From: Acidobacteriota bacterium
GTDB taxonomy: Bacteria > Acidobacteriota > Thermoanaerobaculia > Gp7-AA8
Assembly: GCA_021325515.1 (NCBI GenBank)
Contig: JAJPHC010000013.1
Span: 312,001-376,000, forward strand
Direction of reading: 5' to 3'
DNA length: 64,000 nt
Part shown: positions 45,484 through 63,834 of the stretch, piece after piece
How the letters are laid out: each line of letters starts with the position of its first letter
Position numbering within the stretch: the stretch's first letter is position 1
Notes under the pieces: model-generated
Databases searched by the model: none
What the model was told of the DNA's origin: nothing
The model's input: only the letters and a program-made list of their open reading frames with translations
Program-made: the position numbers and the translations under genes

Positions 45484-45567
45484 GTGTAGGACAGGCGCCC
45501 TCGCCTGTCCACCGGCGCCCTCGCCTGTCCGCTTGTGCACCGACAGGCGAGGGCGCCTGTCCTACAC
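45484..45567. repeat. Family A inverted palindromic repeat (REPIN-like), with internal duplication
   Basis: GTGTAGGACAGGCGCC and CTCGCCTGTC (45484-45509) are mirrored at 45542-45567, with an extra copy of GGCGCCCTCGCCTGTCC between them. It lies between convergent genes, and the iron-permease stop begins at its last base. Other copies: 49187-49246 and 63738-63834. Confidence 0.9.
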
Positions 45568-46707: not shown

Positions 46708-48255
46708 ATGAAGCGACTCATCCTCCTCGGACTCCTTTCGATTTTCGCAGCAGCCACCATCGTCGTTGCGCAGTCGACGACGCAGGCCACGCTGCGAACG
46801 CAGACCGGCGACAAGCCTGTCGCAATCGCTCGCCAGGGCGGGCAGACGTACTTCTCTGCGGAAGACGTCGCGGCGGCACTCGGTGGAAGCGTGGCTGCCG
46901 ATGCTCACGGCTTTCGCGTCACGATCAACAACAACGTGGCGGCGTTCGGTCCGGACAGCCGCTTCGGAGTCGTGCGTGATGATCTGATCGAAATGCCGGC
47001 GCCGCCGGTCGTCATCGACAACCGGCCGTTCGTCACGATGCAGTTCTTTCAGGGATTTCTGGCGAAGACCGCGGATCTCGATGTGGTGTGGGACGAGCGC
47101 GCGCGTCTGCTGTCGATCCGGCCGCTGCAGCACACCATCGTCGGCGTGCAGGTCTCGGTGACCAATGTTCAGGGCACGTCGAAAATCGTCTTCACGCTGA
47201 GCCAGAACGCCGGTTATGCGATCGTGAAAGAGCAGTCGGCGTACACGATCCGGTTTGCGGCGCAGATCCGTCCGCCGTTCGCTGAGCAGGCGTACGAAGA
47301 TCAGAACGTCGCGAAGATTTCGTTTGCGGGGACGGACGCGCGCATTCAGTTGACCGGCGCGGACGTCGTGGGCGACGCGTACAAGCTCGAGAATCCGTAC
47401 CGCGTCGTGCTCGATGTGCGGAAGACATCGCCGGGCCCGGCTGCGCCTTCTGTGCCGCTGGCGCCGAAGTCCGTCGAGCCGTCCGGGATCCACACGATCG
47501 TGATCGATCCGGGACATGGCGGCAAGGACATCGGTGCGACGGGGCCGGGTGGTCTGCTCGAGAAAGATGCGACGCTTGCCGTTGCCAACAAGCTCGCGGC
47601 GGCACTCGCGGTGAAGCTCGGTGCGCGTGTGATTCTCACGCGTGAAGACGACAGCGTCGTGTCGCTCGATCAGCGCACGGCGGTGGCGAATCAGTACAAG
47701 GCCGATCTGTTTCTCTCCGTGCACATGAATGCCTCGACGGGCAAGGGCGCGCACGGCTCCGAGGTGTATTTCCTCTCCGCGGACGCGTCGGATGATCTGG
47801 CGAAGAAAGCGGCCGATGCGGAGAACCAGTCGACGTCGGGGCATGCCGACACGCAGAGCGATCTGAAACTGATCCTGTGGGATCTCGCGCAGCAGGAGTA
47901 TCTCGCCGAGTCGAGCCGCTTCGCGCAGTCGATTCAGGAAGAGATGAACGCACTCGCCGGAATTCAGAATCGCGGCATCAAGCAGGCGCCGTTCAAGGTG
48001 CTCGTCGGCGCGACGATGCCGGCCGCGCTGGTCGAGGTCGCATTCATCTCGAATCCGGATGAAGAGGCGAAGATCCGGAACGAGCAGTTCCAGAACACCG
48101 TCGTCGACGCGCTGACGCGCGCGGTGCAGCGATACAAGAACGATTACGAGGCACGCATCGGCATTGCCCAACCAGCCGCTGCACCCGGACCGGCGGCGAC
48201 GCCTGCGCAGCCTCCTGCGACGCAGACGACGGGCACCGCGAGGACGGGAACCTAG
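46708..48255 (+). CDS. amiC: AMIN-domain N-acetylmuramoyl-L-alanine amidase
   Basis: 515 residues. Signal peptide (ILLGLLSIFAAATIVVAQ), an N-terminal copper-amine-oxidase-like/AMIN region (about 20-245) that targets peptidoglycan, and a C-terminal Amidase_3 domain. In it the zinc ligands are in IVIDPGHGGKD and FLSVHMNAS, and the late ALVEVAFISNP carries the catalytic Glu. It cleaves the amide between MurNAc and the stem peptide, as in cell separation. The gene shares one base (TAGTG) with the GerMN gene. The Pro/Ala/Thr-rich tail is probably disordered. Confidence 0.9.
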   Translation: MKRLILLGLLSIFAAATIVVAQSTTQATLRTQTGDKPVAIARQGGQTYFSAEDVAAALGGSVAADAHGFRVTINNNVAAFGPDSRFGVVRDDLIEMPAPPVVIDNRPFVTMQFFQGFLAKTADLDVVWDERARLLSIRPLQHTIVGVQVSVTNVQGTSKIVFTLSQNAGYAIVKEQSAYTIRFAAQIRPPFAEQAYEDQNVAKISFAGTDARIQLTGADVVGDAYKLENPYRVVLDVRKTSPGPAAPSVPLAPKSVEPSGIHTIVIDPGHGGKDIGATGPGGLLEKDATLAVANKLAAALAVKLGARVILTREDDSVVSLDQRTAVANQYKADLFLSVHMNASTGKGAHGSEVYFLSADASDDLAKKAADAENQSTSGHADTQSDLKLILWDLAQQEYLAESSRFAQSIQEEMNALAGIQNRGIKQAPFKVLVGATMPAALVEVAFISNPDEEAKIRNEQFQNTVVDALTRAVQRYKNDYEARIGIAQPAAAPGPAATPAQPPATQTTGTARTGT

Positions 48256-48797
48256 TGCGCAGAGCGTCTCTCGTTGTCGCGCTCGCGCTGCTCGCAGCCG
48301 CGAGTGCATGCAGGAAGCCGCAGCCGCAGGCGAAGAACATTTCCGAGGCGAACAATGTCGCGATGCGGCCGGTGCGGCTCTACTTCGAGGATGGCAATTC
48401 TCTGCTGACCGCGGAGTTGCACAACCTGCCTCTGCCGGAGAATCCCGCGGCGGCGATTCCTCTCGTCGTGCGCGAGATGATGAAGGGGCCGGGCAATGCG
48501 AGCCTCGCCCGCCTCTTTCCGCCCGACACGATCGTCCGCGGCGCGTATCTGCTGCCGGATGGCACCGCGTTCGTCGACCTCGGCGGCGCCACGCTGCAGC
48601 AGGGTTGGGGCACGGGAACGCATGAAGAGTTGATGGCCGTCTTCTCGCTCGTGCAGACGGTCACGACGAACTTCGCCGAGGTCAAGAAAGTGCGGCTGCT
48701 GGTCAACGGAGAGCCGGCGGAAACGCTGGCGGGGCATGTGTGGCTCGGGCGGTCGTTGCGACCGATGGCGAGTCTGGTCGAGCCCGCTTCCCGCTGA
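48255..48797 (+). CDS. GerMN-domain lipoprotein
   Basis: 180 residues from the GTG that overlaps the amidase stop. Lipobox ASAC follows a hydrophobic core. The GerMN domain has VRLYFEDGNSLL, VVREMMKGP and NFAEVKKVRLLVNGEPAETLAGH. GerM in Bacillus sporulation and GerMN proteins elsewhere sit close to peptidoglycan amidases and septal complexes, which fits the coupled amidase gene. The protein is anchored outside the cytoplasm. Confidence 0.88.
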   Translation: MRRASLVVALALLAAASACRKPQPQAKNISEANNVAMRPVRLYFEDGNSLLTAELHNLPLPENPAAAIPLVVREMMKGPGNASLARLFPPDTIVRGAYLLPDGTAFVDLGGATLQQGWGTGTHEELMAVFSLVQTVTTNFAEVKKVRLLVNGEPAETLAGHVWLGRSLRPMASLVEPASR

Positions 48798-48952
48798 ATA
48801 TGGTCAGTAGTTTCCGAATGAGAACGGTCAACCTTCCAAAATTACCGACCGCCCGGTCTGGACCGAACGCTCGTTTTGTTCTAGACTGACGATGTTTCCA
48901 AATGCAACGGCTATCGCTAAGCGGGTCAATGGCTTGTAACGTTGCTGTTACA
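48798..48952. other. Lower-GC intergenic stretch, no gene seen
   Basis: About 155 bases between the GerMN stop and the small-RNA promoter, with visibly more A+T than the rest. CCGACCGCCCGGTCTGG (48846-48862) contains a short dyad. No ORF or known RNA motif is visible. Confidence 0.45.
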
Positions 48953-48983
48953 TTGAGAAATTTTTCACAATGTATGGGATAAT
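48953..48983 (+). promoter_or_regulatory. Candidate promoter of the small RNA
   Basis: TTGAGA (48953-48958) and GATAAT (48978-48983) are 19 bases apart, in an A/T-rich stretch. A start near 48990 is expected. Confidence 0.5.
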
Positions 48984-48989
48984 GCATTC

Positions 48990-49178
48990 GTATCAAAGAT
49001 AAAGGCATACTGGATGGGCAGGCGGGATTCGCTTCCGTAGTTACAACCTGCCAAAAGCAACATCCCTCTTGAACTCTTCTTTCAACCTTACCGATGTAAA
49101 AGCTCACCACCGAGCAGTTCCGCCCCGCCCAATCCAGTAGAAAGTCAACGGCCCCGCGAACGCGGGGCCGAATTGTTT
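48990..49178 (+). ncRNA. Candidate structured small RNA with two alternative folds
   Basis: About 190 bases framed by a promoter and a terminator, with no gene behind it. Fold 1: a long closing helix of TACTGGAT (49008-49015) with ATCCAGTA (49132-49139), continued by GGGC/GCCC and, past bulges, CGGGA (49023-49027) with TTCCG (49118-49122). Fold 2: GGATG (49012-49016) with CATCC (49061-49065), GGCAGG (49017-49022) with CCTGCC (49047-49052), and an inner CGGGA-TTCGC-TTCCG hairpin (49023-49037). The two are mutually exclusive. Hairpins at 49069-49085 (TTGAA/TTCAA) and 49102-49115 (GCTC/GAGC) fit fold 1. Length and closing helix recall 6S RNA, but I see no sequence signature of 6S, tmRNA, SRP or RNase P. 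Confidence 0.5.
49149..49178 (+). terminator. Rho-independent terminator after the small RNA
   Basis: A perfect 10-bp stem, CGGCCCCGCG / CGCGGGGCCG (49149-49170), with a two-base loop, or four if the closing pair opens. It is followed by AATTGTTT. The U tract is short. Confidence 0.75.
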
Positions 49179-49186
49179 GTGTGTGC

Positions 49187-49246
49187 GTGTAGGACAGGCG
49201 CCCTCGCCTGTCCTTTCGAAGACAGGCGAGGGCGCCTGTCCTACAC
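49187..49246. repeat. Family A inverted repeat, perfect 26-bp arms
   Basis: Arms 49187-49212 and 49221-49246 are perfect reverse complements around an 8-base spacer CTTTCGAA. Each arm contains its own shorter palindrome (GACAGGCG...CGCCTGTC). The holB stop codon (49241-49243) lies inside the right arm. Confidence 0.95.
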
Positions 49247-50035
49247 CAGTTCCGCGAGTGCCTGTTCGGCGAGCAGCCGTGCGTCGGCATTCACTCCGAG
49301 CCATCGGACTGCGGCGAGCATTCCATCTGCGGATGCGAGAATCTTCCTGCTCCCGCATCGCTCGCGCAGCGGTGCGAGCTCTTCGCTGCCTGCGGCGGCG
49401 TCGACGAGGATGCGGCCGGCGAGTGCCATCGCGCTTTTCACATCGTCCTCTCCCGCAATCACCGCGGCCGCGGTGAGCAGTGAAGCCGTCTCGCCCTTCG
49501 TTGCGAACTTCAGCAGCGCCGTCACGATTGCCTTCCGTAACTCGCGGTCGATCGCAACATCGCCCCCGACGTAGATCTGCTGGCAGCGCGACTTGATCGT
49601 CGGCAGCAGCAGGTCATACGCGCGCGTGAGGAGGATGAAGTACGTGTCGCGCGCCGGTTCCTCGAGCGTCTTGAGCATCGCATTCGAGCCGCCGGCGCTC
49701 AGCGCATCCGCCGGATCGATGATGAATACTTTTCCGCGGCCTTCGTACGGCCGCATCGTCGCGCCGGCAACGACGTCGCGCACCTGCTCGACCGAGATCA
49801 TCTTCCGCTCGCCGCCGACTTCGACGACGTGCACATCGGGATGCGATCGCTGCTCGATGCGCCGGCAGGCGGTGCAGCCGTCGCCCGTCGTGCCGTTGAG
49901 ACACTCGATCGTTTTCGCGATGCGCATCGCCGTTTCGCGCAAGGCATCCGGCGATGGGCCATGCAGGATCACGGCATGATGCAGCTCGCCGCGCTGTGCC
50001 GTCTCGACCAGCAACTCCGCCGCCGTCGCCGTCAT
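49241..50035 (-). CDS. holB: DNA polymerase III delta' subunit
   Basis: 264 residues. HHAVILHGPSPDALRE at a degenerate Walker A position, a cysteine cluster (C45, C54, C57) for zinc, SVEQVRDVV, KVFIIDPADALSAGGSNAMLKTLEEP and TIKSRCQQ are the clamp-loader AAA+ signatures of delta'. It is part of the complex that loads the beta clamp. It overlaps tmk by ATGA, the classic tmk-holB pair. The C-terminal 40 residues are Ala/Leu-rich, and the last codon and stop come from a family A repeat. Confidence 0.9.
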   Translation of the reverse strand: MTATAAELLVETAQRGELHHAVILHGPSPDALRETAMRIAKTIECLNGTTGDGCTACRRIEQRSHPDVHVVEVGGERKMISVEQVRDVVAGATMRPYEGRGKVFIIDPADALSAGGSNAMLKTLEEPARDTYFILLTRAYDLLLPTIKSRCQQIYVGGDVAIDRELRKAIVTALLKFATKGETASLLTAAAVIAGEDDVKSAMALAGRILVDAAAGSEELAPLRERCGSRKILASADGMLAAVRWLGVNADARLLAEQALAELV

Positions 50036-50619: not shown

Positions 50620-50742
50620 CGGGCGCGAACGATGAATCATCGGCGCTTCGCAGTCAACCCGGCCGGCGATCCGGCGATCCGATCAGCACGCCTAACAATT
50701 GAGTGCACAACATGGCAGCATTATTTCGCTACCGCCGTCACA

Positions 50743-50771
50743 TTGACCCGACGCCGCGACGCTTCTAGAAT
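50743..50771 (+). promoter_or_regulatory. Sigma-70-type promoter upstream of the NHL/Ig giant protein
   Basis: TTGACC (50743-50748) and TAGAAT (50766-50771) have 17-base spacing. The position implies that translation starts downstream of about 50778. Confidence 0.6.
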
Positions 50772-53700
50772 TTTTCCCATCCTTAAACATTTTCGGGACC
50801 GCCTGGCTGTCCTTATTTTGTGTGCGATGGCACTGTGCGTTACACGTGCGTTTGCACAGACGATCTCCACGTTCGCTGGTGGTGGCAGCATCGAAGGGCG
50901 CGCGGCGACAGCTACGAGCATCGTTCCCGCGGGAATGACCGTTGCGCCGGACGGCACGCTGATCATCGCCGATGCCTTCAACAATCGAGTCGTGCGGATT
51001 GCGAACGGGAACATCAGTACAGTTGCTGGTAACGGCGCGTTGGGTGGTTTGGGCGACGGAGGACGTGCGACCGATGCCGAGCTCTCTGCACCTACGGCAG
51101 TCACGTACGATTCCCTCGGAAAACTGTACATCGCAGAACGTGACGGCAACCGCATTCGTGTCATCTCGAACGGTGTCATCTCGACCTGCGCCGGGCGCGG
51201 CACGCGCGGCTATTCGGGCGACGGCGGCAAAGCGGCGGAGGCGCAGTTCAACGCCCCTGCCGGATTGGCCTTCATCGATGGTGTCCTGTATGTGGCCGAC
51301 AGCGGCAACAACCGTGTGAGGAGAATCGACGCTGCGGGAAACGTAACGACGATCGCCGGTTCGGGCAACGCGAGCTACTCCGGCGATGGTGGACTCGCGA
51401 CGGCGGCGAGCCTCAATACTCCACAGAGTCTCGCGTTCGACGGAAACGGTGGTCTACTCGTCGCCGACAGCGGCAATAACCGCGTGCGACGGGTCGATCT
51501 GAAGTCGGGCCTGATCGACTTGCTTGCGGGGAATGGTGCGGCTTCGTTCTCGGGGGACGACAGGCCTGCGTCCGAGGCGTCGCTGCATCTTGCGGGAAGC
51601 GGTGCAATCGGATTGATTGCAGGTGTGGCTGCCGACAAAGCAGGCAACGTTTTCGTTGCCGACACGTTCAACTCCCGCGTGCGTCGCATCGACGCGGCGA
51701 CAAGGACCATCACAACCATTGCCGGCGATGGGACCTTCTGCTGCACGGCGAAGGGCGCTTTGCCGACGAGTACATCCTTCGGCTGGCCCACCGGACTTGC
51801 GATCGATCCATCCGGAACCGTCATCGTTGGTGTGCGCGCGGACGCGCTCGTACTCGCGGTGAGAGGAACCGTCGATGTCGTCGGTGGCAACCAGTCGATC
51901 GATGACATCGGCGACGGAATGCCTGCTACGGAGACGACGCTCAGTCAGCCAGCGGGCCTCCTTTTTGACCGCGCCGGCAATCTCTTGATCAGTGACAAGT
52001 TCAATTACCGCGTCCGCCGTGTGTCCGCGGCGTCGCACAAGATGGAGCCGGTCGCTGGCGCCGGTGGCCCGGCAGCGTACGCCGGCGATGGCGGTCCGGC
52101 GCTGCAGGCGAAGCTGTTTCAGCCGGACGGTCTGGCGATCGATGCACAGGGGAATCTCTACATTGCCGATGCGAACAATAATCGCGTTAGACGAGTGGCG
52201 ACGAACGGCATCATCTCGACGATTGCGGGCGAAGGTTCGAGTGGGGAATTCGGCGACAATGGTCCTGCCGCAAGTGCCGCGCTCAATACGGCGTCCGTTG
52301 GTGCTGCGGGTCTGGCGATCGATCCCAATGGTGATCTCGTCATCTCCGACTCCGGCAATAATCGTGTGCGGAAAGTCAGTCTCGCCAGCGGCATCATCAC
52401 CACGATTGCAGGTAATGGCGTCGCGGGCTACACGGGCGACAACGTCCCCGCGACGAGTGCATCGTTGAATCATCCGATCGGACTGGCGTATGACAGCGAA
52501 GGAAACCTGTTCATCGCGGACCGCGACAATCACCGCATCCGGAAGGTGACGCCAGCCGGCACGATCTCGACCGTCGCTGGCACCGGGGTGGCGGGATTCA
52601 GCGGCGATGCGGGGCCGGCAACGTCGGCGATGCTGAATCGTCCTTCCGATGTTCGCATCGCTACAAACGGGGATCTCTACATTGCCGATACGTTGAACTC
52701 ACGGATCCGGAGAGTGACCGCCGGCGTGATTGCAACGATCGCCGGCAGCTCACTCGTCGGTAATTACGCCGGTGACGGTGCGCGCGCGACAGCGGCAGGC
52801 CTCGACCTCCCAACGTCGATCGCCATTGATCAAGCCGGGAACGTCTACATTGCCGATTCTGCGTCGAAGCGAGTACGCGTCGTGACGTCCACATGTGTGC
52901 CGGTGGCTGCGCCAGCGCTCCTCGAGCCGGCGAACGGCGCGTCCGTGTCCGCGGCTCCCGCGTTGACGTGGAGCGCCGTCTCAGGCGCGCTGTCGTACGA
53001 CTTGTATGTCGACACCGTGTCGCCCCCCGCGAAGATCGTGGCCACGATTCCATCGAAGGGTGCGACGACTTACTCGTCCACTGCACCAGTGACGGCGGAC
53101 GGCGTCTATTACTGGATGGTCGCAGGCAATGGTGATGCGACATGCGTCGCGTCGCGGACGCCGTCGCCCGTGCAGTCGTTCACGATTCGATCGACTGCCA
53201 ATGGGATTGGTCCGGCCGGCGGTACTGTCACCACGACGGATGGAGACCAGATCCAGGTTCCTGCCGGAGCGCTCACCAGCTCGGCACCGGTGTCGATTAC
53301 ACCCGTCGCGCAGGCGAAGGTCGAACAGGACGCGGACTTCGCGTTCGCCGACTTTGATCTGAGCTTCATCAAAGCATTCGACATTCACATCGGATCGACG
53401 CTCGTGAAGCCCGCCTCATTGTCCATCGTGGATGCTGTCGGAGGGCACAGCGGCTCGCTCATGCTTCTGCGTTGGTCGAGAGATGTCGATGGTGACGGCG
53501 ACCCTGGATTCATCTTCACAGACATGGCCGCTGTCAGCGGGAATCGGTTGATCGCCGCGGGATCGAGTGACTATCCAGGGCTGACACAAGACGGCACGTA
53601 TGTCGTGGTTGAGTCGGCGACTCCGATAGGGTTCGTGGATGGAAGAATCATCGATCGTTCCGGGAATCCGCTGCCCGGCGCAGCCATCACCAGCTTCATG

Positions 53701-56208
53701 CTGCCAATCGTCTACGCCAGCGCGACTTCCGATGGCTCCTATACGCTTCCCGTCCTGGTATCGGCGAGTGGACGGCAGAGGGCGGTCCGTTCGGAGAGTC
53801 CATCACCGCCATTCTGGGTCGTAACGCTAGGCGCACACGCCACGAAAACAGGCTACGGCGTAGTGATTGCGCCAATGCCCGGGCCTGGAAAGCATGTCCG
53901 TGGGCCCGACTCAACGCCCGACCAGAGTGCCACTGTCCTTGCGGAAATAGGATGTTCAACAGAGACGGTCGAGCGGATCAACAAGCTGTCGGAGAGCGTG
54001 CTCGGGAAGGTGATCGAGTTCCTCAAGGATGTTGAATACGAGCCAGTGAAGTTCGATGAGCCGTCGAGTGTGGTGCTCGACTGCACCCAGCCGGACGCAC
54101 GGCTCGAAGCGAACCTGGAGCGGCAGGAAGAGGTCGCAAAAAAGACGATAAGTGACCGCCTGAAGAACTACTCATTCGCCGCAATCAAGCAGATCGCGCC
54201 ATTTTTCAAGCTGGACTTAAAGCTCGACCTTAAGAGCGTCGACGATCTCATTGCTTTCATCTGGAGCAAGACCGTTCCGCAATTCGTTACGGACGCGACG
54301 TCGATTTCCGGCGACCATAAACGACTGACGATAGATTTGTTTGCCTCCAGTGATGGTGGCCCGGCAGCCGTAGACGCAACGATCGTCTTTATCGGCGTGG
54401 GAGCCGAACTGACATATGAAGTGCAGGTCAACGCCACGCCCTCGACGCCGACACGTTGTCAATTAACGTTGAAGCGTCAGGTGAAAATACCATTCCGGGA
54501 TCTCGAATCCTTCGTCGATGCCGTCAAAGTGCGCCTGATTCCTGTAGGGCCCGGTTCAGTCAGGGTTACAGGCCTGAACCGCGGTTGTATCCCGCAGATT
54601 GAGTTCGCTGCGACGCCTCCGCTGATCGCTCGCGGCGGAATTTCGACACTCACCTGGTCTGTCACGAACGCGATCGGAAACCGTGTGTCCATCTCGGGCC
54701 TGGGGGACCGGCCGGCGAATGGATTCGAGAACGTATCTCCTCAGGTGACCACCGATTACGTGCTGACCGCGAGGGGGCGCGACAAGACGGTGAGCAAGAC
54801 GGCGACTGTGACGGTCGCTGCCCCTCCCACGGCGAGCCTCTCCGCGTTTCCCGGGACGATCAAGCCGGGACAGAAGTCGACGTTGACATGGATTACGACT
54901 GGCGCGACTTCCATCGCGATCGACGATCTGCCAGTACAACAAGTACCCGATGGCTTTATCGACGTCATGCCGGCGCAGACGACGACGTATACGCTTACGG
55001 CCCGCGGACCCGGCGGCGTTGCGACGGCGACGGCCACGATCTATGTCGAAGACGTTCCGCCGCCAGTGATTCAATTCGAGGCAAATCCACAGACGGTTTC
55101 GCCGGGCCAACCGGCGCTGCTGTCATGGACGACGACCTATGCGACAGCGGTCGCGATCACCGGTTTGGGCTCCCAACCGCTGAATGGCAGCGTCACGGTA
55201 GTTCCTGAAACGACGAGCAGCTACACGCTGTCAGCAACCGGACCGGGAGGCTCGTCGTTCGCAACCGTGCAAGTGACCGTTGCATCCATTGGCGTGCCGG
55301 TAATTTCGTCGTTCACGGCGGACCCGCAGGTCATCAGTCCCGGGCAGTCGTCGACATTGCGGTGGAGCACCACGGATACCGTCTCCGTCGCGATCAGCGG
55401 CGTCGGTTCCGGGCTGCCGGCGACCGGCTCGGCAACGGTGTTCCCGAACGTGACGACGACCTACACGCTGATCGCTACGGGCAAAGACGGTTCATCGACC
55501 CAGGCCAGCAGGACCGTCACCGTTGGCCAGACGAGCTCGAAGCCGCAGATCCTCAGTTTTGCGGCGAATCCACCGTCGATCAATGCCGGCCAGTCGAGTC
55601 GTCTGAGCTGGACTACCGCCAACGCTGCATCGGCCTATATCACGGGCGTCGGCAATGTGCCCGTGAACGGATATGTCGACGTACGCCCATCCACCACGAC
55701 GGCCTATTCGCTGACGATCAGCGGTTTCGACGGCAGTATCGTGCGCGACACCATCAACGTTACCGTGTCGGGCTCTTCGAATCAGGGCACGTACACCGGT
55801 TCGTTCAGCGGAACGACCACGATGACCAAGGGCGGGAGCGGCACGTGGGGCTGCCATTGGCGCTATACGGTCAGCGGTTCGGTAACCGCGAACGTGACCG
55901 GCAGCGGCCCTTACGGCGGCACCTTCACTTCGACCGGAACAGGCTCGGGTCCTCTGATTCAGCCTTCATCCGTGACCTGTGCGCCGCAGACGAGCCAGGC
56001 ATTCACCGTTACGGGTTCAATCTCCGGAAATTCGGGATCGATCACGGCGAGCGGAACAGACGCGAACGGGGGGTCGTACACGTTTTCCAACGGTACCTTC
56101 AGCAATGGAACCCTCACCGGTACTCTAACCATCAGTTGCAGCTGCTTTGAATCTCCGATCGTGACGACAGTCGTTCTTACCAAGGGAGGATCGGTCGGAC
56201 AGCCGTAG
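50743..56208 (+). CDS. Giant secreted protein: twelve NHL-type repeats, FN3-like, ZU5-like and five Ig-like repeats
   Basis: About 1820 residues. A signal peptide (LAVLILCAMALCVTRAFAQ) leads to twelve NHL-type units of about 50-60 residues (to roughly 52890), with the pattern xTIAGxGxxGxxGDGGPA...GLAxDxxGNLYIADxxNxRVRxV summarised here. Then come an FN3-like domain (52.9-53.2 kb), a ZU5-like GGTVTTTDGDQIQVPAGAL segment, a helical region (54.0-54.3 kb), five Ig-like repeats (54.6-55.8 kb, each with LTWxxTxA) and a Gly/Ser/Thr-rich end. Start uncertain: TTG 50743 is the first in-frame start giving a signal peptide, but it coincides with the promoter, so ATC 50779, CTG 50803 or TTG 50818 are possible. 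Function unknown; adhesion or carbohydrate binding is plausible. Confidence 0.8.
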   Translation: MTRRRDASRIFPILKHFRDRLAVLILCAMALCVTRAFAQTISTFAGGGSIEGRAATATSIVPAGMTVAPDGTLIIADAFNNRVVRIANGNISTVAGNGALGGLGDGGRATDAELSAPTAVTYDSLGKLYIAERDGNRIRVISNGVISTCAGRGTRGYSGDGGKAAEAQFNAPAGLAFIDGVLYVADSGNNRVRRIDAAGNVTTIAGSGNASYSGDGGLATAASLNTPQSLAFDGNGGLLVADSGNNRVRRVDLKSGLIDLLAGNGAASFSGDDRPASEASLHLAGSGAIGLIAGVAADKAGNVFVADTFNSRVRRIDAATRTITTIAGDGTFCCTAKGALPTSTSFGWPTGLAIDPSGTVIVGVRADALVLAVRGTVDVVGGNQSIDDIGDGMPATETTLSQPAGLLFDRAGNLLISDKFNYRVRRVSAASHKMEPVAGAGGPAAYAGDGGPALQAKLFQPDGLAIDAQGNLYIADANNNRVRRVATNGIISTIAGEGSSGEFGDNGPAASAALNTASVGAAGLAIDPNGDLVISDSGNNRVRKVSLASGIITTIAGNGVAGYTGDNVPATSASLNHPIGLAYDSEGNLFIADRDNHRIRKVTPAGTISTVAGTGVAGFSGDAGPATSAMLNRPSDVRIATNGDLYIADTLNSRIRRVTAGVIATIAGSSLVGNYAGDGARATAAGLDLPTSIAIDQAGNVYIADSASKRVRVVTSTCVPVAAPALLEPANGASVSAAPALTWSAVSGALSYDLYVDTVSPPAKIVATIPSKGATTYSSTAPVTADGVYYWMVAGNGDATCVASRTPSPVQSFTIRSTANGIGPAGGTVTTTDGDQIQVPAGALTSSAPVSITPVAQAKVEQDADFAFADFDLSFIKAFDIHIGSTLVKPASLSIVDAVGGHSGSLMLLRWSRDVDGDGDPGFIFTDMAAVSGNRLIAAGSSDYPGLTQDGTYVVVESATPIGFVDGRIIDRSGNPLPGAAITSFMLPIVYASATSDGSYTLPVLVSASGRQRAVRSESPSPPFWVVTLGAHATKTGYGVVIAPMPGPGKHVRGPDSTPDQSATVLAEIGCSTETVERINKLSESVLGKVIEFLKDVEYEPVKFDEPSSVVLDCTQPDARLEANLERQEEVAKKTISDRLKNYSFAAIKQIAPFFKLDLKLDLKSVDDLIAFIWSKTVPQFVTDATSISGDHKRLTIDLFASSDGGPAAVDATIVFIGVGAELTYEVQVNATPSTPTRCQLTLKRQVKIPFRDLESFVDAVKVRLIPVGPGSVRVTGLNRGCIPQIEFAATPPLIARGGISTLTWSVTNAIGNRVSISGLGDRPANGFENVSPQVTTDYVLTARGRDKTVSKTATVTVAAPPTASLSAFPGTIKPGQKSTLTWITTGATSIAIDDLPVQQVPDGFIDVMPAQTTTYTLTARGPGGVATATATIYVEDVPPPVIQFEANPQTVSPGQPALLSWTTTYATAVAITGLGSQPLNGSVTVVPETTSSYTLSATGPGGSSFATVQVTVASIGVPVISSFTADPQVISPGQSSTLRWSTTDTVSVAISGVGSGLPATGSATVFPNVTTTYTLIATGKDGSSTQASRTVTVGQTSSKPQILSFAANPPSINAGQSSRLSWTTANAASAYITGVGNVPVNGYVDVRPSTTTAYSLTISGFDGSIVRDTINVTVSGSSNQGTYTGSFSGTTTMTKGGSGTWGCHWRYTVSGSVTANVTGSGPYGGTFTSTGTGSGPLIQPSSVTCAPQTSQAFTVTGSISGNSGSITASGTDANGGSYTFSNGTFSNGTLTGTLTISCSCFESPIVTTVVLTKGGSVGQP

Positions 56209-63737: not shown

Positions 63738-63834
63738 GTGTAGGACAGGCGCCCTCGCCTGTCGGGTTCCACGGAGGGACAGGCGGGGGCGCCTGTCGTA
63801 CACGGAGGGACAGGCGGGGGCGCCTGTCGTACAC
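63738..63834. repeat. Family A repeat with two tandem right arms
   Basis: The left arm (63738-63763) is followed by two right-arm copies with GGGGGCGCC instead of GAGGGCGCC (63778-63803 and 63809-63834), exactly 31 bases apart. It lies between purS and the truncated gene at the window end. Confidence 0.9.

Follow-up and report, generated by a model that had tools for sequence, protein, structure and literature searches.

The locus lies in a stretch of 64,000 nucleotides of acidobacterial DNA, referred to here as the window, and occupies an intergenic island (48900-49185) with a GC content of 0.43-0.45, compared with ~0.65 in its surroundings. According to named records, the host family comprises 'gp7' soil MAGs of the Acidobacteriota, class Thermoanaerobaculia. 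The island is bounded by a GerMN-domain gene and by holB, and no gene follows the element described below on its own (+) strand, holB being encoded on the opposite one. The features are as follows.

48255-48797: GerMN-domain gene (PF10646), upstream neighbour of the small RNA.
48935-48956, + strand: upstream element TTGTAACGTTGCTGTTACATTG, an 11-bp spaced repeat or imperfect dyad, TTGTNAC-N5-TGTTAC.
48953-48970, no strand assigned: putative Rex operator TTGAGAAATTTTTCACAA, an 18-bp dyad overlapping the -35 region and spacer, kept in relatives.
48978-48983, + strand: -10 element GATAAT, with an extended TG at 48975-48976, kept in relatives.
~48990 to ~49178, + strand: predicted small RNA (sRNA) transcript of ~180 nt, its start placed from the -10 spacing.
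49007-49140, + strand: structured core of ~134 nt, delimited by covariation and covariance model R1.
~49007-49035 with 49113-49140, + strand: closing rod, identified by covariation.
49069-49098, + strand: apical-loop stretch CCTCTTGAACTCTTCTTTCAACCTTACCG and its neighbours, pyrimidine-rich, predicted to pair with element T by complementarity.
49149-49170, + strand: intrinsic terminator CGGCCCCGCGAACGCGGGGCCG, a perfect 9-bp stem of G+C, followed in relatives by runs of thymines.
49241-50035, - strand: holB, on the other flank of the sRNA.
Elsewhere in the genome (G000:C59:9918-9936), - strand: the local copy of element T (L108/L144), flanked by purC and by a gene for a DUF4230 membrane protein.

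Directly 3' of the terminator sits one copy of a REP-like inverted repeat, AGGACAGGCG....CGCCTGTCCT, paired copies of which are found at 49188-49246, 45488-45563 and 63742-63830, with 7 matches in the window against 0.02 expected. Adjoining tmk, 50632-56208 encodes a predicted secreted protein that is very large (1858 aa) and carries many NHL-like repeats.

The initial annotation, made from the sequence of the window, proposed a stand-alone sRNA in a lower-GC island, with a promoter-like element, strong self-complementarity, a perfect terminator stem, no protein gene following and no known RNA family signature, and in all these respects it agrees with the present results. A blastn search with the sRNA element gave a single match per genome in 14 members of the host family, and covariance model R1, built from these 14 sequences, added a further family member (G005) and a distant syntenic copy in a genome of another family (G018; E 0.02); this last copy has a -10 element and a terminator of its own and likewise lies downstream of the GerMN gene. 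The element is thus single-copy and present in 15 of the 18 family genomes as well as in G018, its usual position in relatives being between the GerMN-domain gene and holB. Even with looser filters, no match was obtained in G001, G003 and G012, the latter two belonging to one genus, and outside the order the remaining genomes gave no match either (149 genomes of the class searched). A coding gene was considered and rejected, as the reading frames that start at the sole conserved ATG vary in length from 8 to 43 or more codons, and no frame is shared; a search of a phage collection for an origin of the element yielded no match. The conservation of promoter, rod, terminator and synteny in the 15 family genomes and G018 supports the candidate as a stand-alone sRNA gene.

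The predicted RNA is strongly folded: the segment 48990-49185 reaches -69.8 kcal/mol (z -4.6), a value equalled by none of 200 shuffled sequences. In the alignment of 14 sequences, 89% of the cells of the closing rod are paired, and two-sided changes occupy 17 cells compared with 6.9 +/- 2.0 expected, a count reached in 0 of 500 shuffles; when the rod is slid to other registers, every one is far worse. Rfam cmscan of the window and the locus returned no family at the gathering threshold, and the weak matches (E up to 10) lie off the sRNA, on the adjacent inverted repeat or in holB. The sRNA falls outside every Rfam family tested, RsaE/RoxS and 6S included.

Two features escaped the initial annotation: the operator at 48953-48970, where the reported promoter-like region begins, and the conserved loop at 49069-49098. 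The dyad TTGAGAAATTTTTCACAA is one base off the Rex consensus, TTGTGAAW4TTCACAA (PMC2883068), and the promoter block TTGTCACgTTGCTGTTACATTGAGAAAaTTTTCACAA...TGnGATAAT ranks among the best-conserved parts of the region. Perfect Rex-pattern sites occur exactly twice in the 5.38-Mb genome, at the sRNA promoter and 77 bp before the start of nuoB; weaker sites of this type include one preceding a nuoG-like gene. The genome has a single rex gene (NF003995, 9.8e-71), which follows nuoN without an intervening gene and closes the nuo cluster. The genomes of relatives usually contain two or three Rex-type sites, one of them at the sRNA, and the site upstream of nuoB was found in all four relatives checked (G001, G005, G007 and G009); in G001, where no sRNA was found, it is the only Rex-type site. 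On sequence grounds we infer that Rex binds the sRNA promoter. The upstream element TTGTAACGTTGCTGTTACATTG, which is kept in all aligned relatives and has a single site in the genome at 0 mismatches, is probably the site of a second transcription factor.

In other families of the class, Rex-type boxes precede an SdhC-like gene (G022, L127 1501-1518) and a cytochrome/Act-like gene (G023, L126 1501-1518), both genes identified by eye, suggesting that Rex may control other respiratory genes in those families.

The best-conserved internal stretch of the sRNA is the segment 49069-49098. When the complement of this loop (CGGTAAGRTTCAAAGAAGA) was used as a query, a second recurrent place emerged besides the sRNA itself, which we named T. 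It matches the loop complement over ~29 nt, at its predicted 5' end, and no conservation extends past ~35 nt. In every T locus an extended -10 element, TGNTANNNT, precedes T and reads in its direction, and T begins about 9-12 nt past it, so that a T RNA, predicted to start on the T strand shortly before CGGTAAGG, would open with the antisense of the loop. In several genomes, the present one among them, T adjoins purC, and in others an amidohydrolase-like gene or another gene; the genes that flank it usually read on the opposite strand. It precedes a DUF4230 gene (PF14014) in all T genomes but G009 and G016, lying in most genomes ~43-78 nt before the start codon. In G009 and G016 T stays at purC while the DUF4230 gene is elsewhere, which argues that T is a separate unit and disfavours its interpretation as a DUF4230 leader. 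G001 has T without a detected sRNA; G003 and G012, both without the sRNA, gave no T in the vicinity of purC or DUF4230, and in G018, the loop of which differs, there is no convincing T near either gene.

Complementarity between loop and T was recorded in 15 loop-bearing genomes. For scoring, the loop and T cores were cut manually out of the alignments. The score of the cognate pairs is 710, compared with 630 +/- 12 when T is permuted among genomes, and none of 20,000 permutations matches it; with one genome per genus, the corresponding values are 472 and 424 +/- 10. Changes on the two sides go together: this genome combines TTTCAACC in the loop, where relatives carry TTTGAATC, with GGCTGAAAG in T; G009 and G016 combine CTGCT with AGCAG; and G013 (genus g5) has CCGCTTG and CAAGCGG where the others have CCTCTTG and CAAGAGG. 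Unless the two are in physical contact or share a third partner, such co-evolution between loci that are not linked would be difficult to account for.

The second of these possibilities would not require T to be a transcript at all. T could be a same-sense sequence in the 3' UTR of purC or the 5' UTR of the DUF4230 gene that the sRNA mimics, a third partner, RNA or protein, recognising both. The usual orientation of the flanking genes and the short distance to most DUF4230 starts are compatible with this explanation, as is the lack of a conserved terminator at T. The retention of T by purC in G009 and G016 runs against it, and so does the promoter element that reads toward T in all loci. The imperfect positions of the loop:T pairing also speak for contact, since G-U outnumbers A-C by 29 to 13 (binomial p 0.02, indicative only, as the genomes are related), a bias more in keeping with RNAs that pair on precisely these strands than with a same-sense motif common to both loci. 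On balance we consider a T without a transcript rather unlikely.

Taken together, the conservation of the locus, the covariation of the rod, the Rex-type operator and the co-evolution of loop and T, as established by comparison of genomes, point to a trans-acting sRNA that is repressed by Rex and has an antisense or sponge RNA dedicated to it, an arrangement convergent with the RoxS/RosA system of Bacillus subtilis, and we hold this interpretation to be moderately probable. With regard to transcription of the two RNAs, binding of Rex, direction of control and mRNA targets, we infer the following sequence of events. When NAD+ is dominant, Rex would repress the sRNA; when NADH is high, Rex would leave the operator and the sRNA would be made along with complex I, encoded by the nuo operon. 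Through its exposed loop the sRNA would then base-pair with RNAs, so that respiratory or central metabolism would be readjusted. The T RNA would most likely bind and neutralise the sRNA as a sponge or anti-sRNA, or else would be its main target.

The search for such mRNA partners, which in a RoxS-type circuit would belong to central metabolism and pair close to the ribosome-binding site, covered 844 start regions (~22% of the genome, ~1.2 Mb) and gave none better than shuffled loops, and the complementarity of the nuoB and nuoG 5' regions to the loop is at background level. T may accordingly be the main partner; its pairing, by far the strongest, reaches -53 kcal/mol, where the background goes no lower than -42 kcal/mol. 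A further reading, that a dedicated, co-evolving trans-encoded RNA pair with one member under Rex and a ~29-nt contact between loop and 5' end evolved independently in Acidobacteriota, possibly with T as the only partner, appears to us evenly poised between acceptance and rejection.

The same results lend themselves to a closed two-RNA system, in which the Rex-controlled sRNA would act on T alone and thereby control antisense transcription into purC or other neighbours. The strength of the T pairing and the lack of an mRNA target above background are what this scenario would predict, but the gene next to T differs between genomes, so that local antisense control is not conserved, and we regard the scenario as quite unlikely.

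The initial annotation also described two mutually exclusive folds, a closing helix and an alternative hairpin, as the hallmark of a switching or 6S-like RNA; the former would be a metabolite- or protein-sensing RNA alternating between two states. Only the first helix withstands comparison: compensatory change in both helices would be expected of a two-state switch, and it is seen in the closing rod, while the conserved version of the alternative hairpin has covariation not above that of shuffles. Forcing its 6-bp core, GGCAGG/CCTGCC, costs 14 kcal/mol in the window, and with covariation lacking as well the reading of two exclusive folds is unsupported. The GGCAGG/CCTGCC complementarity is present in the window and several relatives, and in one of them (G014, L002) the alternative hairpin is predicted to be dominant; there is, on the other hand, no downstream gene for a switch to act on, and we consider this possibility highly improbable. 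The suggestion of a 6S-like RNA, which would bind RNA polymerase, is barely credible, as the length, the stand-alone ~180-nt gene and the long closing rod with a large internal opening do recall 6S RNA (RF00013), but the window has no RF00013 match (at gathering or with E up to 10), the genome encodes a genuine canonical 6S of its own on another contig (G000:C40:43576-43774, L016; 77.8 bits), the second fold is unsupported, and the best-conserved part is the pairing loop and not a central bubble.

Cis-encoded antisense pairs, such as those of type I toxin-antitoxin systems and of plasmid copy-number RNAs, have long, co-evolving complementarity in which a loop starts the pairing. The sRNA and T resemble them in being two candidate RNAs with long co-evolving complementarity, and differ in that the loci are separate, no toxin or replication gene is involved and one partner is under a Rex-type operator.

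Our search of the literature found no dedicated sRNA study in Acidobacteriota, and the Rex-repressed sRNA with its antisense partner, if confirmed, would give this phylum a defined sRNA family with a named regulator and a named RNA partner. The closest functional parallel is RoxS of B. subtilis, which is controlled by Rex and ResD and antagonised by the sponge RNA RosA (PMC5419742, PMC8216469). Like RoxS/RsaE of Bacillus and Staphylococcus with its sponge RosA, the acidobacterial element is a stand-alone sRNA with a Rex operator at the promoter, here recognised by its sequence, and a pyrimidine-rich pairing region. ResD is an OmpR-type factor, and the 11-bp spacing of the upstream element may mark a comparable second regulator site. 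A separate antisense or sponge RNA would be common to both systems, T being proposed for that role by its complementarity and co-evolution with the loop, and both circuits would include rex in the genome, here with further Rex boxes upstream of nuoB and of a nuoG-like gene. The differences are equally clear. The two systems belong to different phyla and are unrelated in sequence, RsaE giving no match in the Rfam cmscan (gathering and E up to 10); the sRNA described here is built, unlike RoxS/RsaE, as a long closing rod capped by a single apical loop; the contact with T is a near-perfect complementarity of ~29 nt, whereas RoxS and RosA meet through C-rich and G-rich motifs; and the Rex box of roxS is downstream of the transcription start, whereas the present one lies over the -35 region and spacer. 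If the proposed circuit is real, the design known from RoxS/RosA, in which Rex represses an sRNA that also has a separate antisense decoy, would have arisen twice in distant phyla, and two such origins would suggest that an RNA layer on complex I and NADH sensing is a recurrent solution.
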